Source: Myxococcus sp. (lineage in GTDB: Bacteria; Myxococcota; Myxococcia; Myxococcales; Myxococcaceae). Taken from it: a DNA stretch of 43,452 nucleotides. A program made the translations under genes and the position numbers. Each line of letters begins with the position of its first letter. Within the stretch, counting starts at the first letter, position 1. The DNA lies in assembly GCA_014879945.1 (NCBI GenBank), contig JACSRE010000178.1, forward strand, positions 1 to 43,452, in the 5' to 3' direction. Under the pieces are notes generated by a model. That model was not told the DNA's origin. It searched no databases and was given only the letters and a program-made list of their open reading frames with translations. This document shows positions 8,337 through 43,019 of the stretch, piece after piece.

Positions 8337-10718
8337 TCAGCGCCCTCCGCCCGTGGCCGGCGCCGCGACGTCGGCAGGCGCGGCGGGCGCCGGCACCACC
8401 GCGTCTGAGGTCTTCACCGCGCTCTCGCCGTAGGGCACGCCGCGATCGCGCCCGAGCCGCTGCAGGTAGGCGATCATCGCCACCATCTCGCTGTCGGGCG
8501 CGACGGTGACGCCCTGGGCCAGCAGGTCCTTCGCGACCGCCTCGCCCTGGAGCTGCTGGTCGGCCTTCGCGTTGGCGATCTGCTCGGGCGTGTACGGCAC
8601 GCCGAGCGAGGTCATCAGGTCGAGCTTCTTCGCGCCCAGCCCCTGATCGATCTTGTCGTCAGCCAGCCAGCCGTACGACGGCATGTTGGAGCCCGGGCTG
8701 GTGGCGCGCGGATCCATCAGGTGCGTGTAGTGCCACAGGTTCGGGTACCGCCCGCCGATGCGGTGCAGGTCGGGCCCGGTGCGCTTGGAGCCCCACTGGA
8801 AGGGGTGATCGTAGATGAACTCCTCGGCGCGCGAGGCCTCGCCGTAGCGCTGGTACTCGTCGATCATCGGCCGAATCATCTGCGAGTGGCACACGTAGCA
8901 ACCCTCGCGCGTGTAGAGGTCGCGGCCCTGCAGCTCGAGCGCGGTGTAGGGCTGCTGCGCGCTCCCGGTGGCCGGCACCGCCTGCTTGATGAAGATCGTC
9001 GGCATCAGCTCGGCGACCCCGCCGATGAGCACCGAGATCAGCACCAGCGCCGTGAACGCGAAGGGCCGGCGCTCGATGATGCCGAACCACGAGAGCTTGC
9101 CGGCCGCGCGCTCGCGCTTCTGCACCAGGAAGGCGGCCTCGCCGATCACCAGCACCGCCACCGCGAGGATGATCGCGGGCACCAGCGAGACGAAGACGAA
9201 GGCGGTGGCCGCGGCGAAGGCCACGACGGTGAACCACATGGGGCGGCCGGTGATGACGTCGACCAGGGTGCCGGCCTCGGGGTCGGGGGTGCCCGGCGCC
9301 TCGACCACCACCTCGGTGCTGGCGACGACCGCCTGCTTGCCCGCGATGGTCTTCAGCAGGTTCCAGATCATCACCAGGAAGCCGGTGAAGTAGAGCGATC
9401 CGCCGATGAAGCGCACGATGTACATCGGGCGAATGGCGATCAGCGTCTCGACGAAGCTCGGGTAGGTGAGCGTGCCGTCGGCGCCGCGCGCCTGCCACAT
9501 GAGGCCCTGGTTCACCCCAGAGATCCACATCGAGACCATGTAGAGGACGATGCCGATGGTCGCGATCCAGAAGTGGGCGTCGGCCGCCTTCTTCGAGTGC
9601 AGCTGGGTGCCGTACATGCGGGGGACCAGCCAGTAGAACATGCCGGCCGCCATCAGCCCGTTCCAGCCGAGCGCGCCGCCGTGCACGTGCCCGATGATCC
9701 AGTCGGTGTAGTGGGCGAGCGCCGAGACTGACTTGATGCTCAAAAGCGGGCCCTCGAACGTCGACATGCCGTAGAAGGTGACGCCGGCGACGAAGAACTT
9801 GAGCACCGGGTCTTCGCGCACCTTGTTCCACGCGCCGCGCAGGGTGAGCAGGCCGTTGAGCATGCCGCCCCACGACGGCGCCCAGAGCATCACCGAGAAC
9901 ACCATGCCCAGCGACTGCGCCCAGTCAGGCAGCGCGGTGTAGAGCAGGTGGTGCGGGCCGGCCCAGATGTACATGAAGACCAGGGCCCAGAAGTGCACGA
10001 TCGAGAGCCGGTACGAGTAGACCGGCCGCTCCGCCGCCTTCGGCATGAAGTAGTACATGATGCCGAGGATGGGCGTGGTGAGGAAGAACGCGACCGCGTT
10101 GTGCCCGTACCACCACTGCACCAGCGCATCTTGCACGCCCGCGAAGGCCGAGTAGCTCTTGAAGAGGCTCAGCGGCAGCGCGAACGAGTTGACGATGTGC
10201 AGCACCGCCACGGTGAGGATGGTGGCGATGTAGAACCACAGCGCGACGTACAGGTGCTTCTCGTTCCGCTTTGCCAGCGTCCAGAAGAAGTTGATCGCGA
10301 ACACCACCCACACCAGCGCGATCATGATGTCGATGGGCCACTCGAGCTCGGCGTACTCCTTCGAGGTGGTGATGCCGAGCGGCAGCGTCACCGCGGCGGC
10401 GACGATGATCAGCTGCCAGCCCCAGAAGTGGAGCTTCGAGAGCAGATCGGACGCCATGCGCGTGCGCGTCAGCCGCTGGGTCGAGTAGTAGACGCCGGCG
10501 AACATCATGTTGCCGACGAAGGCGAAGATGACCGCGTTGGTGTGCAGCGGGCGCAGCCGCGAGAACGTCAGGTACGGCGACGAGAAGTTCAGCTGCCACC
10601 AGGCGAGCTCGGCGGCGATGTGCACGCCCACCAGCAGGCCGACGACGCCGAACAAGATGGACGCGAAGATGAACCGTCGGACGATCGCGTCGTCGTACTC
10701 GATTCGCTGGGTCTGCAT
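8337..10718 (-). CDS. ccoNO: CcoN-CcoO fusion, catalytic core of cbb3 cytochrome oxidase
   Basis: A 793-residue fusion. Residues ~1-460 are CcoN: about twelve helices with haem/CuB ligand motifs (RPLHTN at 56-61, WWYGHNAV, the paired His 256-257 in GPHHLLYT, and the GHVHGG segment near 345). Residues ~490-570 carry further helices that bridge to the CcoO part. Residues ~570-740 are the CcoO haem c domain, with C607-x-x-C610-H611 and the conserved [11 protein letters not shown] and MPSYGWL motifs. It reduces O2 with high affinity and pumps protons. The ATG overlaps the ccoS stop (TGATG) and has AGGAG upstream. Split ccoN and ccoO genes are usual; fused forms are known in some delta-proteobacterial lineages. 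Confidence 0.95.
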
Positions 10719-16487: not shown

Positions 16488-16555
16488 GACGCACGGTGTA
16501 CCACGGGTTTTCGCGGTCTCGCTGCGCGGGGCTTTTGGCTACCCTGCACGCCGCG

Positions 16556-18091
16556 ATGACCTTCTTCGAGACGCTGGCAGCCGAGGCCCGTGACGCGCGC
16601 ACCGTGTGGATCCTCGGCGCGCTGCTCCTCCTCGTGCCGCTGGCGCGGCGCTTCGGGCACGACCGGCCGCGGCTACGGGCGGTGATGGTGTTCGCCTTCC
16701 TGCACGTGGTGACGCTGCTGGTCTCGAGCGGCTTCGTGGCGGCGGGGAGCCAGTTCGACGCGTACTTCCGCATGCCGGCGTGGGTCTTCGGGGCCACCGC
16801 GCTGGTGGGCGCGCTGGCGGCGGTGCTGTTCTCGGTGCTCCTGCCGCGGGTGAAGCTCGAGGTGCCGCGCATCGTGCAGGACGTGGCGGTCGCGCTGCTG
16901 TCGGTGGTGGCGGCGGTGACGGTGGCCGGGCGCGCGGGCGTCAACCTCTCGGGCCTCATCGCCACCAGCGCGGTGCTGACGGCGGTGCTCGGCTTCTCGC
17001 TGCAAGACACCATCGCCAACCTCGCCGGCGGCCTGGGGCTCCAGACCGACGACTCCATCGAGGTGGGCGACTGGATTCGGGTCGGCACCCAGCCCACCGA
17101 GCTCAACGGCCGCGTCGTCAGCATTCGCTGGCGCTACACCGCCATCGAGACCCGGAACTGGGAGACGGTGCTGGTGCCCAACCGGGTGTTGATGAACTCG
17201 TCGGTGATGGTGCTGGGCAAGCGGGGCGGGCAGCCGCAGCAGTGGCGCCGGTGGGTCTACTTCCACGTCGACTTCCGCGCTCAGCCCGGCGACGTCATTC
17301 AGGTGGTTCAGGCCGCGGTGCGCGGCGCGAAGATCGAGCGCGTCGCGAAGGACCCGGCGCCCAACGTGGTGATGATGGACATGGCCGAGTCCTACGGCCG
17401 CTACGCGGTGCGGTACTGGCTCAACGATCTCGCCGTCGACGACCCGACCGACAGCGAGGTGCGGCAGGTCATCTTCTTCGCGCTCGAGCGCGCGGGCATG
17501 CGGCCGGCGCTCCCCGCCCACGCGGTGTTCCTCACCCAGGAGACCGAAGACCGCGCCGCCAGCAAGACGCAGAAGCAGCTCGCCCGCAGGCGCCGCGTGC
17601 TCGAGACGGTCACGCTCTTCGCGCCGCTCTCTGAGGCCGAGAAGCAGGAGGTCGCCGAGAGCATGAAGTACGCGCCCTTCGCCCGGGGCGAGGTGATGAC
17701 GCGCCAGGGCGATCAGGCCCACTGGCTGTACCTGCTCGAGGACGGCGAGGCGACGGTGCGGGTCAGCGACGGCGTCACCGAGAAGCAGGTCGCGCGGCTG
17801 ACGGGCGGCTCGTTCTTCGGCGAGATGTCGCTGCTGACCGGCGAGCCGCGCGCCGCGACGGTGGTGGCCGAGAGCGAGGTCGAGTGCTTCAGGCTCGACA
17901 AGGCCGCGTTCGAGCTGGTGATCCAGCGGCGGCCCGAGGTGATGAACGAGGTCGCCGCCCTGCTGGCCAGCCGCCGCGTCGAGCTCGAGGCCGCGCGGGA
18001 GGGGCTCGACGCCGAGACCGCCCGCACCCGGCGCGCCTCGGCCGAGGTCGCCCTGCTCGACCGCATGAAGCGCTTCTTCAGGCTCGACTGA
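16556..18091 (+). CDS. MscS-type channel with C-terminal cyclic-nucleotide-binding domain
   Basis: A 511-residue protein. Residues ~15-145 hold four to five membrane helices. Residues ~130-230 contain the MscS pore-lining helix and beta domain (GFSLQDTIANLAGGLGLQ at 146-163, then VGDWIRV and VLVPNR). Residues ~350-465 are a cNMP-binding domain with the phosphate-binding cassette FGE at 421-423 and PRAAT at 431-435. A coiled-coil-like tail follows. The plan matches cyclic-nucleotide-gated MscS channels (bCNG type), which mostly respond to cNMP rather than tension. Start is ATG 16556; no clear ribosome site is visible. It overlaps the convergent K+ channel gene by 14 bases. Confidence 0.92.
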   Translation: MTFFETLAAEARDARTVWILGALLLLVPLARRFGHDRPRLRAVMVFAFLHVVTLLVSSGFVAAGSQFDAYFRMPAWVFGATALVGALAAVLFSVLLPRVKLEVPRIVQDVAVALLSVVAAVTVAGRAGVNLSGLIATSAVLTAVLGFSLQDTIANLAGGLGLQTDDSIEVGDWIRVGTQPTELNGRVVSIRWRYTAIETRNWETVLVPNRVLMNSSVMVLGKRGGQPQQWRRWVYFHVDFRAQPGDVIQVVQAAVRGAKIERVAKDPAPNVVMMDMAESYGRYAVRYWLNDLAVDDPTDSEVRQVIFFALERAGMRPALPAHAVFLTQETEDRAASKTQKQLARRRRVLETVTLFAPLSEAEKQEVAESMKYAPFARGEVMTRQGDQAHWLYLLEDGEATVRVSDGVTEKQVARLTGGSFFGEMSLLTGEPRAATVVAESEVECFRLDKAAFELVIQRRPEVMNEVAALLASRRVELEAAREGLDAETARTRRASAEVALLDRMKRFFRLD

Positions 18092-20063: not shown

Positions 20064-20501
20064 TCAGCCGATCTTCACGTCGACCGAGCGCGGCAGCGCC
20101 TTCGGCGACTTGGGCATTCGAACCGTCAAGAGGCCGTCTTTGAACTCGGCCTTCACCTTGTCGGCCTCGACGCCCTCGGGCAGCGCGAACGAGCGCATGA
20201 ACGAGCCGTAGAAGCGCTCCACCCGGTGGTACTTCTTCGACTTGTCTTCCTTGTCGAACTTGCGCTCGCCCTCGATGCGCAGCAGCCCGTCGCTGACGTT
20301 CACCTTCACGTCGTCCTTCTTCACCTCGGGCAGCTCGCACTTCACCTGAAAGTCTTCGGCCGTCTCGAGGATGTCGACCGACGGCGCCCAGTCGACGGTC
20401 GCCAGCGAGTCCTTCTGGCCTCCGTTGCGACCCAGCGCTCGATTGAGGCGGGTGCTCATCTCTTCCAGTTCGCGAAACGGATCCCAGGTCGTGAGGTTCA
20501 T
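20064..20501 (-). CDS. Hsp20/alpha-crystallin small heat-shock protein
   Basis: A 145-residue small heat-shock chaperone. The N-terminal WDPFRELEEM segment is typical of class I bacterial Hsp20. The alpha-crystallin domain runs from ~38 to 135, with FQVKCELPEVKKDDVKV, the GERK segment and the AEFKDGLLTVRMPK motif. The C-terminal VDVKI resembles the I-x-I oligomerisation tail. ATG 20501 is preceded by AAGGAG seven bases upstream. The 147 bases between this start and the divergent kinase gene contain no CIRCE element that I can find. Confidence 0.95.
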   Translation of the reverse strand: MNLTTWDPFRELEEMSTRLNRALGRNGGQKDSLATVDWAPSVDILETAEDFQVKCELPEVKKDDVKVNVSDGLLRIEGERKFDKEDKSKKYHRVERFYGSFMRSFALPEGVEADKVKAEFKDGLLTVRMPKSPKALPRSVDVKIG

Positions 20502-20648
20502 GGCGTCGCTCCTTGAGGCGGCGTGGAGACCGCAGCGCGCTGGCCGCTCGCAGCTGGCGCTCGAGCCCAGCCTCAGCAAATGAAGGGCCAGCGCTCCTTC
20601 GGGAAGAAGGGGCGGGGCGCCGCGGCAAGGTGTGCGGGTTCTTCCAGA

Positions 20649-21554
20649 ATGATTGGAAATCCTTTCGCGTTAGAACCCCCGGTCGTGAGCTCCCAGCTGA
20701 TCCTCGACGGGAAGTACCGCCTGGTGCGCCCCGCCGGCTCGGGAGGCACGGCCCGGGTCTTCCTGGCCGAAGACACCGGCACCGGCGAGCGGGTGGCGGT
20801 GAAGGTGCTGCGCCGCCAGCTGCTCGACGATCACGAGATGCGCGCGCGGTTTCAGCGCGAGGCCGCCCTGCTGTGGCAGATCGATCACCCGGGCATCGTG
20901 AAGCTGCTGAAGTTCGAGGAGCGCGCGGCCGAGGGCCTGTTGCTGGTGCTGGAGTGGATCGAAGGCGTCAGGCTCGACGAGCTGACGGCCCGCGAGCCGC
21001 TCGCGCCCGAGATGCGCCTGGAGCTCTTCGCGCAGCTCGCCTCGGCGCTCGGGGCGATTCACCAGCTGGGCATCGCGCACCGCGACGTGAAGCCCGACAA
21101 CACCATGGTGACGGGCTGGCCCGACGCCCCGAGGCTCAAGCTGCTCGACTTCGGCATCGCGCGCTTCACCGACCCCAAAGAAGCGGCCCTCATGTTCCAG
21201 ACCAACGTCAACCGCGTCGGCGGCACGCCCTCGTACGTCTCGCCGGAGCAGGCCATGGGGCAGCCAGCCACCTCGGCCTCTGACGTCTACAGCCTCGGCG
21301 TCGTCGGCTACCAGCTGCTGTCGGGGGCGCTGCCCTTCACGGGTGGGCACTTCGACGTGCTCTCGGGGCACCTGCACGAGGCCCCGCCGAAGCTGGTGCC
21401 GCTCGACGACGCGCTGGTTGGGCACCACGCGCTGGGGGTGGTGATGGCGTGCCTCGAGAAGAAGCCCGAGAAGCGGCCTGCCGACGGCGCGGCGGTGGAG
21501 GCGCTCCTGCGCGCCCCGAAGAAGAAGGGGGTCTGGCCCTTCACCCGGCGCTGA
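20649..21554 (+). CDS. soluble Ser/Thr protein kinase
   Basis: A 301-residue Hanks-type kinase that is almost only the catalytic domain: glycine loop GSGGTARVF (30-38), Lys52 (VAVKVL), HRDVKPDN at 144-151, DFG at 167-169 and GTPSYVSPEQAMG in the activation loop. No transmembrane or sensor domain follows; the tail is a short basic segment. The open frame begins at 20523 but residues encoded there are unlike any kinase. I prefer ATG 20649; GTG 20685 is also possible. The bases 20650-20675 are unusually AT-rich for the window and could be promoter DNA, which would favour 20685. It ends five bases before the monooxygenase gene. Confidence 0.9.
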   Translation: MIGNPFALEPPVVSSQLILDGKYRLVRPAGSGGTARVFLAEDTGTGERVAVKVLRRQLLDDHEMRARFQREAALLWQIDHPGIVKLLKFEERAAEGLLLVLEWIEGVRLDELTAREPLAPEMRLELFAQLASALGAIHQLGIAHRDVKPDNTMVTGWPDAPRLKLLDFGIARFTDPKEAALMFQTNVNRVGGTPSYVSPEQAMGQPATSASDVYSLGVVGYQLLSGALPFTGGHFDVLSGHLHEAPPKLVPLDDALVGHHALGVVMACLEKKPEKRPADGAAVEALLRAPKKKGVWPFTRR

Positions 21555-21559
21555 CGGCC

Positions 21560-23023
21560 ATGAACGACGTCGAGGTGGTGGTCATCGGGAGCGGCTTCGC
21601 GGGGCTGGGCGCCGGCGTGGAGCTCAAGCGCCGGGGGCGCCCGTCCTTCGTGATCCTCGAGCAGGCCGAGCGCGTGGGCGGCGTGTGGCGCGAGAACACC
21701 TACCCCGGCTGCGCCTGCGACGTGCGGGTGCACCTCTACTCGTTCTCGTTCTGTCCCAACCCCGACTGGAGCCACACCTACGCGCGCCAGCCCGAGCTCC
21801 TCGAGTACCTGGAGCGCGTGGCGACCCAGTTCGGGCTGCGACCGCACCTGCGCTTCGGGCGACGCGTGGTCGAGGCGCGGTGGCACGAGGCCTTGGCGCG
21901 GTGGCAGGTGCGCTGCGAGAACGGCGAGGAGTGGTCGGCGCGATTCCTCATCGCCGGGCTCGGCGGGCTGAGCCGGCCGTCGCTCCCCGCGCTGCCAGGC
22001 CTCGAGGCCTTCACGGGGCCGGTCTTTCACTCGGCGCGGTGGGACGCCTCGGTCGAGCTCTCCGCGGCCCGGGTGGGGGTCATCGGCACGGGGGCGAGCG
22101 CGATTCAGTTCGTTCCCCACCTGGTGGACCGCGCGCGAGGCGTCACCGTGTTCCAGCGCACCGCCCCCTGGGTCCTCCCGCGGGGAGACAAGGCCATCAG
22201 CCCGGCGCTCCGCACGGTGCTCCGCGTCTTCCCGTTCGTGCAGACGCTGCTGCGCTGGGCGCTCTATTGGCTGCACGAGCTGCGGGTGCCGGCCTTCGTC
22301 AAGGCGCCCTGGCTGATGACGCTGGCGAGCCGCCTGGCCAGGCGCCACCTCGAGGCCCAGATCGCAGACCCCGCCGTGCGCGAGCAGCTGACGCCCGACT
22401 ACGCCCTGGGCTGCAAGCGCGTGCTGGTGTCAGACGACTACTACCCGGCCCTCACGCGCCCGAGCTGCGAGCTCGTCACTAGCCCGATCGAGGCCGTCGT
22501 GGAGCAGGGCGTGAAGACGCGCGATGGGCGGGTGCACCCCTGCGACGTGCTGATCTTCGGCACCGGCTTCGAGGTGACCGACATGGTCGGCGCGCTCTCG
22601 ATCTCCGGCCGCCACGGCGTCCACCTCGGTGACGTGTGGAGCCAGGGCGCGAAGGCCTGGTACGGCACGGCGGTACACGGCTTCCCCAACCTCTTCCTCC
22701 TGACGGGCCCCAACACCGGGCTGGGCCACTCGTCGATGGTGTTCATGATCGAGGCGCAGCTGGCCTTCGTGATGAAGACCATCGACATCGTCACCAACAC
22801 CGACGCGCGCTGGTGGCAGGTGCGCGACGACGCCGAGGCGGGCTTCAACGCGGCGCTCCAGCGCCGGCTGCAGAAGACCGTCTGGCTCAGCGGATGCCGG
22901 AGCTGGTACCTCGACGAGCGCGGCCAGAACGTCACGTTGTGGCCGGGCTTCACCTTCACCTTCCGCGCGGGGCTCTCGCGCTTCGACAAGCAGCTCCACC
23001 ACCTCGAAGGAGTCGAGACATGA
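21560..23023 (+). CDS. Baeyer-Villiger-type FAD/NAD(P)H monooxygenase
   Basis: A 487-residue flavoprotein. The FAD-binding Rossmann motif GSGFAG is at 10-15, and the second (NADPH) motif GTGASA at ~176-181. Between them lies F151-T-G153-PVF-H157-SAR-W161, which fits the FxGxxxHxxxW fingerprint of type I Baeyer-Villiger monooxygenases exactly. The GVWRENTYPGCACD stretch is also typical. These enzymes insert one O atom next to a ketone to give an ester or lactone, using O2 and NADPH. The ATG at 21560 is five bases after the kinase stop, and its stop overlaps the next start (ATGA). The natural substrate is unknown. Confidence 0.9.
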   Translation: MNDVEVVVIGSGFAGLGAGVELKRRGRPSFVILEQAERVGGVWRENTYPGCACDVRVHLYSFSFCPNPDWSHTYARQPELLEYLERVATQFGLRPHLRFGRRVVEARWHEALARWQVRCENGEEWSARFLIAGLGGLSRPSLPALPGLEAFTGPVFHSARWDASVELSAARVGVIGTGASAIQFVPHLVDRARGVTVFQRTAPWVLPRGDKAISPALRTVLRVFPFVQTLLRWALYWLHELRVPAFVKAPWLMTLASRLARRHLEAQIADPAVREQLTPDYALGCKRVLVSDDYYPALTRPSCELVTSPIEAVVEQGVKTRDGRVHPCDVLIFGTGFEVTDMVGALSISGRHGVHLGDVWSQGAKAWYGTAVHGFPNLFLLTGPNTGLGHSSMVFMIEAQLAFVMKTIDIVTNTDARWWQVRDDAEAGFNAALQRRLQKTVWLSGCRSWYLDERGQNVTLWPGFTFTFRAGLSRFDKQLHHLEGVET

Positions 23024-23856
23024 AGGCAGGACAGATCGTGGTCATCACCGGCGCGGGCTCCGGCATCGGCCGGGGCCTGGCGCAGCTGCTCGACGCCCGG
23101 GGGTGTGAGCTGGTGCTGGCCGACGTCAGCGCCGAGGGGCTCGACGAGACGCAGGGCCTCTTGAAGCGGAAGGCCTCGCTCCAGCGGGTGGACGTCTCGA
23201 AGCGAGATCAGGTCGAGGCGCTCGCGGCCGAGGTCCACTCCACGCACGGCCGGGTCGACGTGCTGGTGAACAACGCCGGCGTCACCGTCAACGACAGCGT
23301 CGCGCACGTCTCGTACGAGGACTTCGAGTGGGTGATGAACGTTAACTTCTGGGGCGTGGTGCACGGCACCAAGGCGTTCCTGCCCGCCATGCTGGCCCAA
23401 CGCTCGGGCGTCATCGCCAACGTCTCGAGCGTCTTCGGCATCGTCGCCTGGCCGCTGCAGGGCATGTACAACGCCTCGAAGTTCGCGGTGCGCGGCTTCA
23501 CCGAGGTGCTGTGGCGTGAGCTGAAGGGCACCGGGGTTCGCGCGGTGTCGATTCACCCCGGCGGCATCAAGACCAACATCACCCGCTCGATGCGTTTTCG
23601 AAGAGGCGCCACCGAAGACGCCAGCCACGCGACCGCGGTGCGCCTGTTCGACAAGGTGGCGAAGACGACCCCGGAGCAGTGCGCGCAGCGCATCGTCAGC
23701 GGCATCGAGCGGGGCGACAAGCGGGTGCTGGTCGGCTCCGACGCGGTGATGCTGGACCGGCTCCAGCGCACCTCGCCGACGGGCTACCCCGCGGTGCTGG
23801 AGTACCTCGAGCAGCGCTCGCAAGCCCGGCGCGCGAAGCGGAAGAAGGCCCCGTGA
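23020..23856 (+). CDS. short-chain dehydrogenase/reductase
   Basis: A 278-residue classical SDR. The cofactor motif TGAGSGIG is at 10-17, NNAG at 84-87, Asn109, a Ser at 136/137, and the catalytic Y150-x3-K154. Asp35 after beta-2 (LADVS) suggests NAD(H) preference. The C terminus is very basic (QARRAKRKK). It starts at ATG 23020 with GAAGGAG seven bases upstream and overlaps both neighbours by four bases, so it belongs to the monooxygenase operon. It would interconvert an alcohol and the ketone used or made by its partner; the substrate is not identified. Confidence 0.92.
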   Translation: MKAGQIVVITGAGSGIGRGLAQLLDARGCELVLADVSAEGLDETQGLLKRKASLQRVDVSKRDQVEALAAEVHSTHGRVDVLVNNAGVTVNDSVAHVSYEDFEWVMNVNFWGVVHGTKAFLPAMLAQRSGVIANVSSVFGIVAWPLQGMYNASKFAVRGFTEVLWRELKGTGVRAVSIHPGGIKTNITRSMRFRRGATEDASHATAVRLFDKVAKTTPEQCAQRIVSGIERGDKRVLVGSDAVMLDRLQRTSPTGYPAVLEYLEQRSQARRAKRKKAP

Positions 23857-24932
23857 AGCGGCGCGCGGCGCTGCTCTTCATCACCCTGCCCTTCGCGCTG
23901 GTGGCCTGGCTCTTCGTGCTGCCCTCGCCCATCGCGCCGGTGGCCTGGGAGCCCCCGCCACGCACGGCCATGGAGGGCGCCTTCGCGCCCAACGAGCGCC
24001 TCAAGGCCGTCGAGTGGTGGGCGAAGCAGCTGGTGGGCCCCGAGGCGATGTTCGTCGAGCCCGACGGCTCGCTGGTGACGGGCCTGAAGGATGGGCGCGT
24101 GGTGAGGCTCAGTCCCGGGGTCGACGCGCCGCAGGTGCTGGCCGACACCCACGGCCGGCCGCTGGCGCTCGCGCGGTACACCGACGGCCGCATCTTGATC
24201 TGCGACGCCTGGCGCGGGCTGCTGGCGATGGACGCCGACGGGGTGATCGAGGTGCTGGCCTCGGAGCACGGCGGCGTTCCCTTCAAGTTCACCGACGATC
24301 TCGACGTCTCGACGAGCGGCGCCGTGTACTTCACCGACGCCTCGGCCCGGCACGACTTCGAGCACTACAAGCACGAGCTGCTCGAGCACCAGCTGACGGG
24401 CCGCGTGCTGCGGTGGGACCCGCAGACCCGCCGCACCTCGCTCGTCGCCAGCGGCCTCAACTTCGCCAACGGCATCGCGCTCGCGCCCGACGAGTCGTTC
24501 CTGGTGGTGGCCGAGACCGGCGGGTACCAGCTGTGGCGGGTGTGGCTGACCGGCGAGAAGGCGGGCACCAAAGAGAAGTTCGGCCCGCCCCTGCCCGGCT
24601 TCCCCGACAACGTGAGGTACTCGAGGGCGCGGCGCGTCTTCTGGGTCGCCCTCGGCTCTCCGCGCAACGGGCTGGTCGACGCGCTCGCCCAGTGGCCCCG
24701 GGTGCGCGCGGTGATCCCCAACCTGCCGGACGCCCTTCAGCCCGCGCCGGAGCGGTACGCCTTCGTGGCGGCCGTCGATCTCGAAGGCCAGGTGGTGGAG
24801 TCGCTCCAGTACCAGGCCCCTGACAGCTACTCCCCCATCGCCAGCGCGCTCGAGCACGACGGCTACCTGTACCTGGGCAGCTTCGCGCGTGAGGGCGTCG
24901 CCCGGCTGAAGCTCGAGCCACCCGCGCCCTGA
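23853..24932 (+). CDS. membrane-anchored SMP-30/strictosidine synthase-like beta-propeller
   Basis: A 359-residue protein with one N-terminal helix (~5-23, signal anchor) and then a six-bladed propeller of the SMP-30/gluconolactonase/strictosidine synthase-like superfamily. Recognisable blade segments are PEAMFVEPDGSLVTGLKDGRV, FTDDLDVSTSGAVYFTDAS and LNFANGIALAPDESFLVVAE, similar to mammalian APMAP and plant SSL proteins. Many members are metal-dependent lactonases or arylesterases. The GTG start overlaps the SDR stop (GTGA). In this operon a lactone- or ester-opening step after the Baeyer-Villiger reaction would make sense, but activity is inferred. Confidence 0.82.
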   Translation: MKRRAALLFITLPFALVAWLFVLPSPIAPVAWEPPPRTAMEGAFAPNERLKAVEWWAKQLVGPEAMFVEPDGSLVTGLKDGRVVRLSPGVDAPQVLADTHGRPLALARYTDGRILICDAWRGLLAMDADGVIEVLASEHGGVPFKFTDDLDVSTSGAVYFTDASARHDFEHYKHELLEHQLTGRVLRWDPQTRRTSLVASGLNFANGIALAPDESFLVVAETGGYQLWRVWLTGEKAGTKEKFGPPLPGFPDNVRYSRARRVFWVALGSPRNGLVDALAQWPRVRAVIPNLPDALQPAPERYAFVAAVDLEGQVVESLQYQAPDSYSPIASALEHDGYLYLGSFAREGVARLKLEPPAP

Positions 24933-24962: not shown

Positions 24963-25409
24963 GTGAGCAGCATGCTCTCGCTGGCGCTCACGCTGGTCCT
25001 CGCGCAAGGCTCGGTCCGCGTCGCGGTGCTCGACGTCTCGGCGCCAGACGCGATCTACGAAGACGTCTCGCGCGCGCTCACCGAGACGGTGTCGGACGAG
25101 CTCTTGAAGAAGGGCTTTCTGTCGAAGCGCGTCGACGAGAGCGAGCTGCCCGTCGAGGGCTGCCGCATCGGCCCGTGTCTGGGCGTCATCGCCAGGGCCC
25201 AGTCCGCCGACGTGCTGGTGATCGTCGACGCGACCGAGGGCGCGAAGGGGAAGGTCGACGTGGTGCTGAGCGCGATGCGCGGGCGTGACGGGCTGCCGCT
25301 GGCGGCGGGGCGGTGGGCGACGACGGGTGAAGGCAAGCCGGGCAAGCAGCTGACGAAGTTCCTGGTGGCGACCCAGAAGGCCGTCGCGAAGCTGGTGGCC
25401 GCGCCCTGA
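24963..25409 (+). CDS. secreted protein of unknown function
   Basis: I do not recognise a family with confidence. The 148-residue protein starts with a short signal peptide (MLSLALTLVLAQG, if the ATG at 24972 is used) and then VRVAVLDVSAPD, a beta strand/helix start reminiscent of the N-terminal domain of TolB- or CsgG-like periplasmic proteins. Two Cys (GCRIGPC, ~59-65) could form a disulfide. The C terminus is basic and helical. It lies alone between the propeller gene and the esterase gene, with 53 bases downstream, and the start has no strong ribosome site (GTG 24963 or ATG 24972). Confidence 0.65.
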   Translation: MSSMLSLALTLVLAQGSVRVAVLDVSAPDAIYEDVSRALTETVSDELLKKGFLSKRVDESELPVEGCRIGPCLGVIARAQSADVLVIVDATEGAKGKVDVVLSAMRGRDGLPLAAGRWATTGEGKPGKQLTKFLVATQKAVAKLVAAP

Positions 25410-25462: not shown

Positions 25463-26290
25463 ATGCCGAGACGCTGGTGGTGGACTGCCTTCCTGCTGGT
25501 GGCCTGTGTTCCCGATCACGCCGTGCAGGGGCGCCCCTATGAGGTGCGGGTGCCGAACGGCTACGACGGCACGACGCCGCTGCCGCTGGTGATCATGGCG
25601 CACGGCTACGGCGTCACCGGCCGCGGCCAGGACATCTTCTTCCCCGTCTCAGGCCAGGTCGACGCGAAGCGGTTCCTCTACGCGATGCCCAACGGCACGG
25701 TGGACCGCCTCGGCAAGCGCTTCTGGAACGCGACCGAGGCCTGCTGCAACTTCGAGCACCTCGCGATCGACGACGTGGCCTTCTTCCGTGCGTTGGTCGA
25801 CGACATCAAGCAGCGGTACCCGGTGCAGCCCGGGCGCGTGTTCCTGGTGGGGCACAGCAACGGCGCCTTCATGTCGCTGCGCCTGGCCTGTGACGCGAGC
25901 GACGTCTTCGCCGGCGTGGTGGCGGTCGCGGGCTCGACCTTCGACGATGCCCAACGGTGCGGCGAGGGCCAGCCGGTGCCGATCCTCCTCGTTCATGGCG
26001 ATCAGGACACCGCCGTGCCGATCAACGGCCGCGACGGGCTCTACCCAGGCGCGAAAGAGACGGGCGCCAGGTTCGCGAGGCGAAACGGCTGCACGGGTGG
26101 GTGGAAGGACGGAGAGCGGCTCGATCTGCTCGGAAACGGCGACGCCGAGACGCAAGGGTCGACGATCGAGGGCTGCGCGCCACGGGGCGCGGTGGAGCTG
26201 TGGACGCACGAAGGCACCGGCCACCTGCCCCTCTACGACGCGCGGTGGACGTCACGCATCATCGACTGGCTCCAGGAGCGTGCACGATGA
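25463..26290 (+). CDS. PHB-depolymerase/feruloyl esterase-like lipoprotein hydrolase
   Basis: A 275-residue alpha/beta hydrolase of the LpqC/polyhydroxybutyrate depolymerase-like group. A lipobox L-V-A-C places the acylated Cys at 15. The oxyanion region is IMAHGYG (44-50), the nucleophile Ser132 in GHSNGA, the likely acid Asp182 in HGDQDTAVP, and the His near 257 in GTGHLPLY. Several Cys pairs suit an exported enzyme. The family cleaves polyester or aromatic ester bonds outside the cytoplasm; the substrate here is unknown. Its stop overlaps the start of the next gene (ATGA), indicating co-translation. Confidence 0.85.
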   Translation: MPRRWWWTAFLLVACVPDHAVQGRPYEVRVPNGYDGTTPLPLVIMAHGYGVTGRGQDIFFPVSGQVDAKRFLYAMPNGTVDRLGKRFWNATEACCNFEHLAIDDVAFFRALVDDIKQRYPVQPGRVFLVGHSNGAFMSLRLACDASDVFAGVVAVAGSTFDDAQRCGEGQPVPILLVHGDQDTAVPINGRDGLYPGAKETGARFARRNGCTGGWKDGERLDLLGNGDAETQGSTIEGCAPRGAVELWTHEGTGHLPLYDARWTSRIIDWLQERAR

Positions 26291-38278: not shown

Positions 38279-39466
38279 TCACCTCCAGGGCGGAGCGGGT
38301 GCGTCAGCGGGGAAGTCGCGCCGCAGGGGGAAGGTGGTGGCGTTCTCGGTCTGCATCAGCCGCCGCAGATCGGGGTGCCCTGCGAAGCGCACGCCCAGCA
38401 GGTCGAACTGCTCGCGCTCCTGCCAATCGGCCCCGGCGAAGACGCCGCTCAGGGTCAGCACCGGCTCGTCGGGCGCCAGCCGCACCGACCAGGCCGCCAC
38501 CTTCGAGCCCGGCCCGATGGTGCGCACCGCGGTGGTGAGCTCGAAGTGCTCGGGCTCGGCGGGGTCGGCGCCCTTGCGGCCCTTGCCGGCCAGCCAGTGC
38601 GTCGCCACCATGGTGACGAGCTGTCGGTAGCCCAGCGCCTTGAGCCGCCGGGCGAGCTCGAGGTGCTGCGCGAGGGGGATCACCGGCGGCCCATCGGCCG
38701 GCAGCTCGGTGACGCCCAGCTCGGCGAGCAGCGCCGCGAAGTCGCCGCCGACGAGCGGCGCCACCTGGGGCGCGGGGCCGGCCGCCACCTCGAGCGGGGC
38801 GCTCTCTTCATCGGCGGTCGGGTTGTCCGAGGCGCGCTCCTGCGCGAGCGTCTGCTCGGGCGAGCGGGTGGGCTCGGTGAGCCTGGGCACCGAGGGCTGG
38901 GTCACCTTCATCAGCCCCGGGTTCACCTCGGGCACCACCACCTCGCCCCGCCGCTGCCGCTGGATCTTCTCCTGCAGCCGCAGCATGCCGTGCATCAGCG
39001 CTTCGGGGTTCGGCGGGCAGCCGGGCACATAGACGTCCACCGGCATGAAGGTGTCGACGCCGGGAACCACGCTGTAGAGGTTCCGGTAGAAGTCTCCCGA
39101 GATGGCGCACGAGCCCATCGCGACGCACCACTTGGGCTCGGGCATCTGCTCCCACAGCTTGAGCACGCGCGGCGCCATCTTGGTGGTGATGGTGCCGGCC
39201 ACCACCATCACGTCGGCCTGCCGGGGCGTGGCGCGCACGATGACGCCCATGCGATCGATGTCGACCCGGCTCGCCGCCGTGGCCATGAACTCGATGCCGC
39301 AGCAGCTGGTCGCCATGGGGAAGATCCACATGGCGTTGGTGAGGCCCCAGGTGAGCAGATCGTCGAGCGCGGCGGTGCCGACGGTGAGGCCGGGCGTCTC
39401 GAGCAGCACCTGGTAGAGGGGGTGGCGGAAGTTGGCCCCGGTGTCGACGGTGCGCTGCGGGCTCAT
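38279..39466 (-). CDS. nuoBC: NuoB-NuoC fusion subunit of complex I
   Basis: A 395-residue fusion. Residues 1-~175 are NuoB (PSST), with all four N2 cluster ligands: Cys55, Cys56, Cys120 (GSC) and Cys150 (VPGCPPNPEA). Residues ~176-262 are a Pro/Glu/Ala-rich linker. Residues ~263-395 are NuoC (30 kDa), ending in the signature EREQFDLLGVRFAGHPDLRRL. Both domains look intact. ATG 39466 overlaps the nuoA stop by four bases and is preferred to the GTG two codons upstream. N2 reduces quinone. The usual layouts are separate nuoB and nuoC or a nuoCD fusion. Confidence 0.95.
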   Translation of the reverse strand: MSPQRTVDTGANFRHPLYQVLLETPGLTVGTAALDDLLTWGLTNAMWIFPMATSCCGIEFMATAASRVDIDRMGVIVRATPRQADVMVVAGTITTKMAPRVLKLWEQMPEPKWCVAMGSCAISGDFYRNLYSVVPGVDTFMPVDVYVPGCPPNPEALMHGMLRLQEKIQRQRRGEVVVPEVNPGLMKVTQPSVPRLTEPTRSPEQTLAQERASDNPTADEESAPLEVAAGPAPQVAPLVGGDFAALLAELGVTELPADGPPVIPLAQHLELARRLKALGYRQLVTMVATHWLAGKGRKGADPAEPEHFELTTAVRTIGPGSKVAAWSVRLAPDEPVLTLSGVFAGADWQEREQFDLLGVRFAGHPDLRRLMQTENATTFPLRRDFPADAPAPPWR

Positions 39467-39822
39467 TGCCACTGGAGCGCTCCTTTGCGGGTCGCCCAGG
39501 CCCAGCCGAGCATCAGCACCACCACGAACGAGGTGACGGCGACGAGGCCGCGCGCGCCGGCCTCACGCACGATGGTCGCCCACGGCAACAGGAAGGCCGT
39601 CTCGATGTCGAAGAGCACGAAGAACAGCGCCACCACGTAGTAGCGCGCGTGAAACCGCACCCAGGCCACGCCCGAGGGCACCTCGCCGCACTCGTAGGTC
39701 TGTCCCTTGAGGGGCTCCCGCTTCGTCGAGACGACCCGCAAGAGCCTGGCGCCCACCAACATCGAGCCCGCCACCGCGACGGCGACCAGGAGAAACGCGA
39801 GCAGGGCGAGGCCAGAGGACAT
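39463..39822 (-). CDS. nuoA: NuoA, membrane subunit of complex I
   Basis: A 119-residue three-helix subunit. The hallmark YECGEVPSG loop (with the Cys near the quinone site) and FHARYYVVALFFVLFDIETAFLLPWA are present. It is the first nuo gene and starts 19 bases after the stop of the ferritin-like gene. Confidence 0.97.
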   Translation of the reverse strand: MSSGLALLAFLLVAVAVAGSMLVGARLLRVVSTKREPLKGQTYECGEVPSGVAWVRFHARYYVVALFFVLFDIETAFLLPWATIVREAGARGLVAVTSFVVVLMLGWAWATRKGALQWQ

Positions 39823-40386: not shown

Positions 40387-41259
40387 TCACTTCTGCAGGT
40401 AGGCTTCGAGGATCTGGTGTCGCGAGCGCGCCTTCCTGGCCTGCTCGGCCTGGCGCAGCTTCACCAGGGCCTCGTACGTCGGCGGCGGGTTGGGGTTGCG
40501 GTAGAAGACGCCGGTGTAGAGCTCGGTGCCGTACGAGCGCGCGAGATCGAGCGCGGCGAGCTGGTTCGAGGCGTCGTGCCCCAGGCTCGCCAGCGTCTTC
40601 ATGGTCGCCTTGTGCGCCTTGAGCTGCTGGTTGTCTTCGCCGAACGTCACGCACGGCGACTGGATGTTGACGAACGAGAAGCCGGGGTAGCGAATGGCCT
40701 CTTCGATCAACGCGGTCATGCCGGGCATGTCGGCGGGCGTGGCCTGGGCGACGAACCCCGCGCCGTAGGCGAGCATGTAGAGCAGCGGGTTGATCGGGTC
40801 TTCGAGGCTGCCCAGCGGCGAGGTGACGGTCTCGAGGCCGCGGGGCGAGGTGGGCGAGAGCTGCCCCTTGGTGAGCCCGTACACCTGGTTGTCCATCACC
40901 AGGTACGTCAGGTCCATGTTGCGGCGCACCGCGTGCGGCACGTGCCCGCCGCCGATCGAGAAGCCGTCGCCGTCACCGCCAGCCACCACCACCAGCAGCT
41001 CGGGGTTGGCCAGCTTCACGCCCTGCGCGATGGGGAGCGAGCGCCCGTGCACGCTGTTGAAGCCGTACGCGGTGGTGTACCCGGGAATGCGTGAGGAGCA
41101 GCCGATGCCCGAGATGAAGGCCACCTCGTGCGGCGGCCGGCCGATCGACGAGAGCGCGCGGTAGAGGCCCTGGAGCACCCCGAAGTCGCCGCACCCGGGG
41201 CACCAGATGGGCTTGAGGTCGCTCTTGTAGTCCTTCGCCTGAAGCACCGGCGCGTTCAT
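40387..41259 (-). CDS. korB: 2-oxoacid:ferredoxin oxidoreductase beta subunit
   Basis: A 290-residue thiamine-diphosphate subunit. The [4Fe-4S] ligands are Cys20 and Cys23 (WCPGCG), Cys54 (GIGCSS) and Cys203 (SPCVTF). The TPP/Mg motif runs from GDGD at 95-98 to N124-QVYG. With the fused alpha-gamma subunit it oxidatively decarboxylates a 2-oxoacid with CoA and reduces ferredoxin. The sequence and length match KorB of aerobic bacteria (2-oxoglutarate). No delta (ferredoxin-like) subunit is encoded nearby. Its start overlaps the korA stop by four bases. Confidence 0.94.
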   Translation of the reverse strand: MNAPVLQAKDYKSDLKPIWCPGCGDFGVLQGLYRALSSIGRPPHEVAFISGIGCSSRIPGYTTAYGFNSVHGRSLPIAQGVKLANPELLVVVAGGDGDGFSIGGGHVPHAVRRNMDLTYLVMDNQVYGLTKGQLSPTSPRGLETVTSPLGSLEDPINPLLYMLAYGAGFVAQATPADMPGMTALIEEAIRYPGFSFVNIQSPCVTFGEDNQQLKAHKATMKTLASLGHDASNQLAALDLARSYGTELYTGVFYRNPNPPPTYEALVKLRQAEQARKARSRHQILEAYLQK

Positions 41260-43019
41260 GACGGCATGCCCTTCTGCTCGAGCAGGCGCGCGACGAGCTC
41301 CGCGGGTTGAAAGGGGTTGGCGCCGCTGCGACAGAAGCTGCGAAGGCCCCTGGGCACCTCGGTGAACATGCGCAGCATCCGGTAGAGCTGGCCCTGGTGC
41401 GACAGCTCGACGAGCAGGCCGTGCCGGAGCGACTCGAAGAAGCTGGCGTAGACCTGCTCGGCGATCGGGTACAGCAGGTAGGGCACGAGCAGCTTGACGT
41501 CGTGGCCCTGGGCGGTCGCCAGCGCGTGGGCCTCGCGCGCGACGCCGGCGGTGCTGCCCCAGGCGATGAGGCCCAGCGGGGCCTTCGGGTCGCCCAACAG
41601 CTCGAAGAACTCGGCGCGGCGCTTGAGCGGCTCGAGCTTCTTGAAGCGCTTCTCATTCATCTTCGCGTGCATCACCCCGCCCGAGGTGGGGTCGCCCTTC
41701 TCGTTGTGCTCGATGCCGGCCGCCAGGTAGGTGCCGCCCTGAAGGCCCGGGTGGCTGATGGGGCTGACGCCGCTGTCGGTGAAGGCGAAGCGCGCGTACG
41801 GCTTCTCGGCCAGCTCGGCCGCGGTGGGCACCCGGCGCTCGACGATCTCGAGCTTCGAGGTGTCGATGAGATCGACCGCCTCTTTGCGCTGGGCGATCTC
41901 CTGGTCGGACAAGATGATCACCGGCGTCTGGTACTGCTCGGCGATGTTGAAGGCGTCGACGGTGACGCGGAAGGTGTCTTCGACGTCGGTGGGCGCGAGC
42001 ACCGGGCGCAGCACGTCGCCGTGCCCAGAGAAGGCCGCCTGAAAGAGGTCGCCCTGCTCCGGCTTGGTGGGCAGGCCGGTCGAGGGGCCGCCGCGCTGCA
42101 CGTTGAGCACCACCAGGGGCAGCTCCGCGATGGTGGCCAGCCCGAGGATCTCGGTCTTGAGGTCCATGCCCGGGCCGCTGGTGGCCGTCATCGACTTACG
42201 CCCCGCGAACGAGGCGCCGACGCTCGCGCCGATGCCCGCGATCTCGTCTTCACACTGGAGCACCGCGCCGCCGTACTTCCAGATCTCGCGGCTCAGCGTC
42301 TGCATCACCTCGGTGGACGGGGTGATGGGGTAGCCGCCGAAGAACTTCACGCCCGCGAAGAGGGCTCCGGCCGCGCACATGTCGTTGCCGTCGCAGAGCA
42401 TCTTCGAGCCCGGCGGCCCGGTCGGCCGCGCGATGACTGGTGGAGCGGGGAGCGGGTGCGCACTCGCGTACTCGATGCCTGCCGCCAGCGCCTTCTCGTT
42501 GGCCTCGAGTAGCCCTTCGGCCTTGCCGCCGAACTTCTTGGTGAGGCCCCGGGTGATGGCCGCGGCGGGAATTCCGAACCAACCTGAGAGCAGCCCCAGC
42601 ACCACCGACGTCTTGGCCTTGTCTGACCCGGCCGACTTCTTGGTGAGCTCGGTGATGGCGACGGGGATGAGCCGGTTCGGCACCACGCCGCGCGCCTTGA
42701 GCGTCTCGGGCGGCGGGCCTGCCTTCTCTTCGTAGATGAGGACGGTGGTGACCGAGAGCGGCAGCTCGGCGCCGAACTTGAAGAAGTCTTCCCAGTTCAG
42801 GGCCACCAGCACGTCGAGGGCGCCGCCGGGGTTGAGGACCTTCTTCGTCGAGAGGCGAACCCGGCACGAGGACTCGCCGCCGCGAATCTGCGAACCGAAG
42901 CTCTTGGTCATCAGCGCGTGGTAGCCCTCGGAGGAGGCTGCTGCGAGGAGCGACTCACCGGCGCTCACCACTCCGTCACCGCCCGCGCCCGCCATTCCCA
43001 GAATCAAGTCGTCGACCAT
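41256..43019 (-). CDS. korA: 2-oxoacid:ferredoxin oxidoreductase, fused gamma-alpha subunit
   Basis: A 587-residue fusion. Residues 1-~190 are the gamma domain (GMAGAGGDGVVSAGE at 8-22; SQIRGGESSCRVRLS). Residues ~205-587 are the alpha part with YPITPSTE at 230-237 and RGGPSTGLPTKPEQGDL at 309-325, a pattern typical of 2-oxoglutarate-specific enzymes. The two-gene korAB form is the one reported as relatively oxygen-tolerant in mycobacteria. ATG 43019 has no clear ribosome site upstream. It is the first gene of the presumed operon, and the promoter should lie to its right. Confidence 0.94.
   Translation of the reverse strand: MVDDLILGMAGAGGDGVVSAGESLLAAASSEGYHALMTKSFGSQIRGGESSCRVRLSTKKVLNPGGALDVLVALNWEDFFKFGAELPLSVTTVLIYEEKAGPPPETLKARGVVPNRLIPVAITELTKKSAGSDKAKTSVVLGLLSGWFGIPAAAITRGLTKKFGGKAEGLLEANEKALAAGIEYASAHPLPAPPVIARPTGPPGSKMLCDGNDMCAAGALFAGVKFFGGYPITPSTEVMQTLSREIWKYGGAVLQCEDEIAGIGASVGASFAGRKSMTATSGPGMDLKTEILGLATIAELPLVVLNVQRGGPSTGLPTKPEQGDLFQAAFSGHGDVLRPVLAPTDVEDTFRVTVDAFNIAEQYQTPVIILSDQEIAQRKEAVDLIDTSKLEIVERRVPTAAELAEKPYARFAFTDSGVSPISHPGLQGGTYLAAGIEHNEKGDPTSGGVMHAKMNEKRFKKLEPLKRRAEFFELLGDPKAPLGLIAWGSTAGVAREAHALATAQGHDVKLLVPYLLYPIAEQVYASFFESLRHGLLVELSHQGQLYRMLRMFTEVPRGLRSFCRSGANPFQPAELVARLLEQKGMPS

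Follow-up and report, generated by a model that had tools for sequence, protein, structure and literature searches.

A predicted alcohol-to-ester oxidation pair whose genes overlap that of a membrane-anchored strictosidine-synthase-like propeller in Myxococcus sp.

Three overlapping genes in a contig of Myxococcus sp. are read here as two functional pieces, namely a pair of oxidizing enzymes and an older, separate membrane-anchored propeller, and this reading is given a probability of roughly 0.55. The window, by which we mean the whole stretch of DNA analysed, is a single contig of 43,452 bases (C377) from a genome of 7.7 Mb in 448 contigs (G000); metagenome-assembled genomes labelled Archangium sp., Archangiaceae, Myxococcaceae or Myxococcales are the named close relatives of the locus. 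Between positions 21560 and 24932, the + strand encodes, in this order, a type I Baeyer-Villiger monooxygenase (BVMO), a classical short-chain dehydrogenase/reductase (SDR) and a strictosidine-synthase-like (SSL) six-bladed propeller (Table 1). The start codons are ATG, ATG and GTG, and each junction is an overlap of four bases, ATGA between BVMO and SDR and GTGA between SDR and propeller. These overlaps had been claimed in an earlier reading of the same DNA, hereafter the original prediction, and are confirmed by the coordinates; the SDR, which had been named first, is in fact the second gene. A functional pair in which the SDR would take an alcohol to a ketone and the BVMO would take the ketone to an ester or lactone is well supported.

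The first gene product carries an exact FxGxxxHxxxW fingerprint, as originally predicted (FTGPVFHSARW, from residue 151). The second fingerprint of type I BVMOs, [AG]GxWxxxx[FY]P[GM]xxxD, is also matched exactly by GGVWRENTYPGCACD at residues 40-54. Two Rossmann glycine motifs are present (GSGFAG at 10 and GTGASA at 176), and R287 aligns with R342 of the steroid monooxygenase 4aos, which we take to be the catalytic arginine. Both fingerprints were found in all 44 distinct BVMO sequences checked, those of the window and of five congeners among them. The protein is a type I BVMO, for which a ketone-to-ester or ketone-to-lactone activity is predicted. In the window genome, PF00743 has one match and the sole other match to the BVMO is a fragment at 8e-5. 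The best match among solved structures was a steroid monooxygenase (4ap3/4aos). This was rejected as evidence of the substrate, given that all matches of the BVMO were distant and split into two aligned halves; nearness to steroid monooxygenase mirrors which BVMOs have structures.

The SDR contains every element of the classical family (TGxxxGxG, NNAG and the Asn-Ser-Tyr-Lys set), in the form of TGAGSGIG at 10, NNAG at 84, N109, SS at 136-137 and Y150-N-A-S-K154. The presence of D35 after the second strand suggests a preference for NAD, and the protein is probably an NAD-dependent secondary-alcohol dehydrogenase. A more specific name is not justified, since none of the 25 NCBIfam families shown (of 228) reached its cut-off. 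A second SDR, 42% identical, is encoded on another contig of the window genome (G000:C234).

The propeller scored above the Pfam cut-offs for the three families given in Table 1. Its N-terminal stretch is hydrophobic (19-residue mean hydropathy of 2.53 from residue 5), and an AlphaFold2 model built on a 14-sequence alignment (mean pLDDT 88.7) places a helix at residues 2-22, followed by the propeller strands. The profiles, the hydropathy and the predicted helix thus bear out the anchored, SSL-like propeller of the original prediction. Given that MKRR precedes the helix and that about a dozen residues after it carry no positive charge, the propeller domain is predicted, by the positive-inside rule for membrane protein topology, to lie outside the cytoplasm.

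Comparison of the model with solved folds placed it closest to TGW6 of rice, an indole-3-acetic acid (IAA)-glucose hydrolase (PDB 8KG3; Z 35.1, root mean square deviation (rmsd) 2.4, 277 residues aligned, 31% identity). Strictosidine synthases (Z 31.7-33.9) and the RPA3624 lactonase (Z 31.0, rmsd 2.4, 259 aligned) came next, with Drp35 lower (Z 28.5, rmsd 2.7, about 269 aligned). TGW6 is reported to hydrolyse IAA-glucose and to have partly conserved calcium positions (Glu59, Asn167, Asn226 and Asn272) at which no calcium was found, only one of these residues being acidic, as against at least two in calcium-binding members of the family (PMC10958001). Alignment with TGW6 puts E64, D148, N206 and N253 of the propeller at these positions, so a calcium-type site, with four ligand positions of which at least two are acidic, is predicted. 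Among the best 80 of 219 SSL loci, the ligand positions read E-D-N-N in 63, E-N-N-N in 11, E-D-N-G in 4 and E-N-N-G in 2; L039 and L040, the two rows furthest removed in the family alignment, have Ser at the second position. Conservation of D252/N253 is partly by construction, since the patterns with which these loci were found contain LPGFPDN and FWVA..PR. The catalytic Glu of strictosidine synthase, which we take to be that of the HFEQ motif (Glu309 in R. serpentina), is replaced by A330 in an alignment with 6n5v, which is not what a true strictosidine synthase would show. Taken together, the fold, the calcium-type site and A330 make the propeller look like a hydrolase rather than a synthase.

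To establish the distribution of the three genes, a set of 60 genomes was used, comprising the window genome, six congeners and others up to the level of order. The SSL gene was detected at E<1e-60 in 14 of them. A search for the same triplet recovered it, in the same order, in five of the six congeners (G002-G006). Among these five, the four-base overlap of BVMO and SDR is kept in four (the gap is 0 in G002), as is that of SDR and SSL (59 bases lie between the genes in G003). The sixth congener, G001, a draft of 640 contigs, yielded no BVMO orthologue (best match E 2.8e-11) and no SDR at E<=1e-40. It retains the SSL gene in place, with an Hsp20 gene adjoining. G001 and G003 are sisters in the trees of SSL (98/96), of the alpha/beta hydrolase ABH described below (100/100) and of the downstream protein U148 (100/98); the ion-channel tree does not resolve the pair. 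Given that its sister G003 has all three genes, loss of BVMO and SDR in G001 is the simplest reading, although separate gains would also fit. Their joint absence beside a retained SSL gene implies that the pair behaves as a unit and that the propeller needs neither. The propeller is independent of the BVMO-SDR pair in origin and retention, though its gene overlaps that of the SDR in most of the genus.

The association of SSL and BVMO reaches p 0.003 when the genus is included, a value that shared ancestry alone can give. Outside the genus, 3 of 53 genomes have both, 4 have SSL only, 9 BVMO only and 37 neither (Fisher p 0.18). Conserved synteny was rejected as proof of function, given that neighbours with no known link are conserved nearly as well: the MscS channel and U148 are each kept in all five triplet congeners, and the kinase and ABH each in four.

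Analysis of BVMO loci beyond the genus revealed a recurrent BVMO-SDR pair. A BVMO homologue at E<=1e-80 is present in 59 of 195 genomes of the phylum. At 29 distinct non-genus Myxococcota loci, a same-strand SDR neighbours the BVMO in 16 and an alpha/beta hydrolase in seven. SSL was found beside none of them; the flanks of 15 loci (L167-L181) extend to just 1.5 kb either way, and at least three more loci (L073, L075 and L083) lie close to contig ends, so that partner counts are lower bounds and an SSL gene further off would be missed. Nine annotated plasmid loci were chosen, not at random, from 153 records (PLSDB gene tables are incomplete, and the unannotated H4 was left out). Here, an alpha/beta hydrolase is near or joined to the BVMO in seven (Deinococcus NW-56, D. 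aetherius, Deinococcus KNUC1210, B. glumae, Caballeronia, Gordonia and Rubrobacter), an SDR occurs in five (NW-56, D. aetherius, Gordonia, Rubrobacter and A. baumannii) and SSL in none. BVMO-SDR is therefore a known module whose usual third gene encodes an alpha/beta hydrolase.

The operons that most resemble the locus have the order BVMO, HSL/LipR-type hydrolase, SDR in G012, G032, other Myxococcaceae and Rubrobacter radiotolerans, and alpha/beta hydrolase, BVMO, SDR in Deinococcus sp. NW-56 and D. aetherius. Identity to the window BVMO is 48-54% in the Myxococcaceae and Deinococcus operons and 41% in Rubrobacter. Like the window, they have a same-strand SDR and several junctions with four-base overlaps; unlike it, their third gene encodes an alpha/beta hydrolase and not an anchored propeller. 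In G012 and Rubrobacter, the hydrolases encoded between BVMO and SDR have no obvious signal sequence at the N terminus, which makes a cytosolic place likely for them. One congener (G005) also has a second, more distant set (L085, on G005:C310), in which an SDR 47% identical to that of the window lies beside a BVMO of 31% identity. That pair is preceded by a frame whose end, in our reading, resembles metal-dependent hydrolases, as at the A. baumannii plasmid locus.

The SSL family, in turn, is found mostly away from BVMO genes. To our knowledge, bacterial SSL proteins are widespread and mostly untested. Relatives occur in many phyla, and the fetched flanks of 75 of the best 80 loci contain no BVMO, some loci being short enough for neighbours to be missed. 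In the other five, BVMO and SDR adjoin SSL; these five are G002-G006 again, and L091 is G001, so they are not independent cases. At the 73 non-genus loci with readable neighbours, the largest neighbour cluster has 19 proteins, the scanned member of which is an AMP-forming ligase (PF00501), and another cluster reads, in our view, like prolyl-tRNA synthetase. DUF1302 and DUF1329 genes follow SSL at some of these loci. A Deinococcus plasmid has SSL surrounded by genes for an SDR, MaoC, a thioesterase and an acyl-CoA dehydrogenase; a P. aeruginosa plasmid carries SSL without such neighbours. These surroundings weakly suggest lipid-type substrates for part of the family. In Solimonas/Nevskia-type gammaproteobacteria (L104-L106, L115, L120, L122-L124 and others), SSL stands beside an AMP-forming-ligase-like gene, with DUF1302/DUF1329 in several, which hints at a lipid-type substrate.

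The two pieces might work as follows. With NAD+ as cofactor, a cytosolic SDR would turn a secondary alcohol into a ketone, and a cytosolic FAD/NADPH-dependent BVMO would insert oxygen into that ketone, yielding an ester or lactone. The pair most likely acts on a hydrophobic aliphatic or alicyclic alcohol or ketone. Cleavage of the BVMO's ester would fall to a cytosolic hydrolase whose gene lies away from the locus, in line with the HSL-type hydrolase on G000:C231, which is related to the third gene of the relatives. The anchored propeller, whose active site would face away from the cytoplasm and whose calcium site would be of the gluconolactonase/Drp35 type, would hydrolyse some ester or lactone there; it would be the older gene at the locus, able to persist when the pair is absent. 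Should the two pieces cooperate, the propeller would more likely act before uptake, freeing the alcohol from an ester, than as a final step.

Several observations weigh against this division. The SDR/SSL overlap is kept in five of the six triplet genomes, the window included, which suggests selection for joint expression, and SSL adjoins BVMO in all six genomes of the genus that have this BVMO. The absence of the pair from G001 carries the uncertainty of a draft genome. In L150 and L161, SSL adjoins a different kind of SDR (29% and 26% identical) without a BVMO, so an SSL-SDR partnership may recur. The window is not alone in placing an anchored hydrolase beside a BVMO, given that the BVMO-linked alpha/beta hydrolase of Deinococcus KNUC1210 (L188) has a hydrophobic N terminus. 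The HSL-type hydrolase of the window genome that is related to the third gene of the relatives, encoded elsewhere (G000:C231), is only 39% identical, and the topology of the propeller is based on an N-terminal helix and the positive-inside rule.

A linear route would extend the pair by one step, with the anchored propeller opening the product of the BVMO to an acid at the membrane, as the original prediction had it. Gene order and overlaps, the intact calcium-type site and a fold near TGW6, strictosidine synthases and then RPA3624 and Drp35 are consistent with such a route, and operons of BVMO and esterase are known, as in the acmAB described for Gordonia (PMC6215540). Nevertheless, we regard it as doubtful: the propeller is kept without BVMO and SDR in G001, is predicted to lie outside the cytoplasm, was found at none of the 29 and nine other BVMO loci and lacks a BVMO neighbour at 75 of its own 80, and SSL and BVMO are not significantly associated outside the genus. 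The first two steps of the original prediction therefore stand, upheld by the motifs, by repeated SDR-BVMO adjacency in other taxa and by the joint absence in G001; the step to the acid does not. We rate higher, though still as unlikely, a positional accident in which the three genes are co-transcribed, the propeller and the pair share no substrate and the order in the genus is general synteny. The neighbourhood as a whole is mostly kept in the same five congeners, so that conservation of the triplet is little better than background, and the neighbours of SSL elsewhere are mixed (ligase and synthetase-like clusters); the retained overlap of SDR stop and SSL start argues against it.

An improbable elaboration is that in one lineage of Myxococcaceae an APMAP-like anchored lactonase was recruited into translational coupling with BVMO-SDR, giving a two-compartment relay that would make or break a membrane lipid ester or lactone (e.g. 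a prey lipid or lipid signal), with the kinase in front as regulator. Least likely of all, the BVMO would be mainly a promiscuous detoxifying oxygenase (S-/N-oxidation, ketone xenobiotics) and the SDR a reductase, with no catabolic route. Some members of the BVMO family, among them the prodrug activator EthA, do oxidize heteroatoms, but an alcohol-ketone-ester route better explains why SDR and alpha/beta hydrolase genes recur as partners of the BVMO. The sterol or steroid substrate of the original prediction was set aside for want of support. A search limited to the N-terminal family SQHop_cyclase_N (PF13249) gave no match in the window genome, G001 or G004, which makes a self-made sterol unlikely; an exogenous sterol may still be used. 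Matches in G002, G003, G005 and G006 are partial, except one of 248 positions in G002, and the P450s present in all seven genomes of the genus are not specific to a sterol route.

The BVMO, SDR and propeller genes probably form one transcription unit, which may start earlier, given that the kinase reading frame ends 5 bases before the BVMO start. No promoter-like site was found by a scan of the region and one terminator-like site against 2.7 expected, neither result being informative at a G+C content of 70%. A relative of the kinase lies directly before the BVMO in four of the five other triplet genomes, G006 being the exception. In the window, the kinase and Hsp20 genes stand head to head; congeners carry only one of them there, the kinase in G002-G005 and Hsp20 in G006 and G001.

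Downstream, the order is SSL, U148, ABH. U148 follows SSL in all six congeners, G001 included, and is possibly in the same transcript; it is a steadier companion of SSL than either BVMO or SDR. ABH is a putative lipoprotein, in that we read its N terminus (...LLVAC) as a lipobox. It is kept in G001 without BVMO and was not found near SSL in G006, hence shows no tie to the BVMO. The window further contains a CcoN-CcoO fusion, close to FixG-like and P-type ATPase genes, a NuoB-NuoC-type frame within a complex I run, and 2-oxoacid:ferredoxin oxidoreductase genes upstream of that run.

Table 1. Positions of the genes discussed, in window coordinates
Feature	Position	Strand	Length	Pfam match	Description
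BVMO	21560-23023	+	487 aa	PF00743, E 4.9e-13	Type I Baeyer-Villiger monooxygenase, predicted FAD/NADPH
SDR	23020-23856	+	278 aa	PF00106, E 2.7e-55	Classical short-chain dehydrogenase/reductase
SSL propeller	23853-24932	+	359 aa	Str_synth PF03088, E 1.6e-24; SSL_N PF20067, E 3e-14; SGL PF08450, E 1e-11	Membrane-anchored six-bladed propeller; predicted extracytoplasmic calcium-type esterase/lactonase
Kinase	20523-21554	+		PF00069, E 2.9e-41	Ser/Thr protein kinase reading frame from first possible start (real start may be further in)
U148	24963-25409	+	148 aa	No match	Hydrophobic N terminus
ABH	25463-26290	+		PF02230, E 8e-11	Putative lipoprotein alpha/beta hydrolase (Abhydrolase_2/esterase-like)
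Hsp20	20064-20579	-			Head to head with kinase
MscS-type channel	16496-18091	+			C-terminal cyclic-nucleotide-binding domain
CcoN-CcoO fusion	8337-10718	-	793 aa	COX1 (residues 12-441), FixO (547-758)	
NuoB-NuoC-type frame	38279-39472	-		Oxidored_q6, Complex1_30kDa	Two domains in one reading frame
Complex I run	39822 down to 31047				
2-Oxoacid:ferredoxin oxidoreductase genes	40387-43019				

In a collection of openly licensed PubMed Central articles, none combined Baeyer-Villiger monooxygenase, strictosidine synthase and short-chain dehydrogenase, none joined strictosidine synthase-like with paraoxonase, hydrolase and calcium, and the titles and opening lines of abstracts among the articles retrieved named no myxobacterial BVMO operon. 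Known systems resemble the locus piece by piece. For the propeller, TGW6 has the closest fold but is without the second acidic calcium ligand, and we know of no BVMO or SDR link for it or for APMAP of vertebrates. APMAP, likened here by description and not by sequence, is reported to be a type II protein that crosses the membrane once, bearing a six-bladed propeller outside the cell that has potential hydrolase activity (PMC5566180).

For the pair, the mymA operon of Mycobacterium tuberculosis (Rv3083 monooxygenase, Rv3084 LipR esterase, onward to Rv3089) joins a monooxygenase and an esterase in one operon. We take Rv3083 to be a BVMO and Rv3085 (sadH) an SDR. As in a mymA-type operon, BVMO and SDR are adjacent on one strand in the window, where no LipR/HSL-type hydrolase lies between or beside them; ABH belongs to another Pfam family. 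The likeness is one of description: the part of PMC10272862 consulted places the esterase LipR, as the hydrolase, immediately behind the monooxygenase, makes no mention of an SSL propeller, and reports that VirS needs the neighbouring kinase PknK in order to activate mymA. Likened to the locus by its reaction, AlmA of Acinetobacter baylyi ADP1 is described as a soluble group B flavin BVMO that acts in the breakdown of long-chain alkanes and converts aliphatic ketones to esters (PMC12449030). The two-gene operon acmA-acmB of Gordonia sp. TY-5 is reported to encode an acetone monooxygenase and its ester hydrolase (PMC6215540), the likeness lying in operon make-up; that system acts on acetone. 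In Thalassolituus, a BVMO plus an esterase are reported as raised on C28 alkane (PMC6304351). Against this background, BVMO and SDR form a movable unit that is accompanied by different third genes in different lineages, and G001 and its sister G003 offer a natural comparison for the role of bacterial SSL propellers without a BVMO. The pair represents a familiar kind of pathway, and the propeller is its unusual neighbour.

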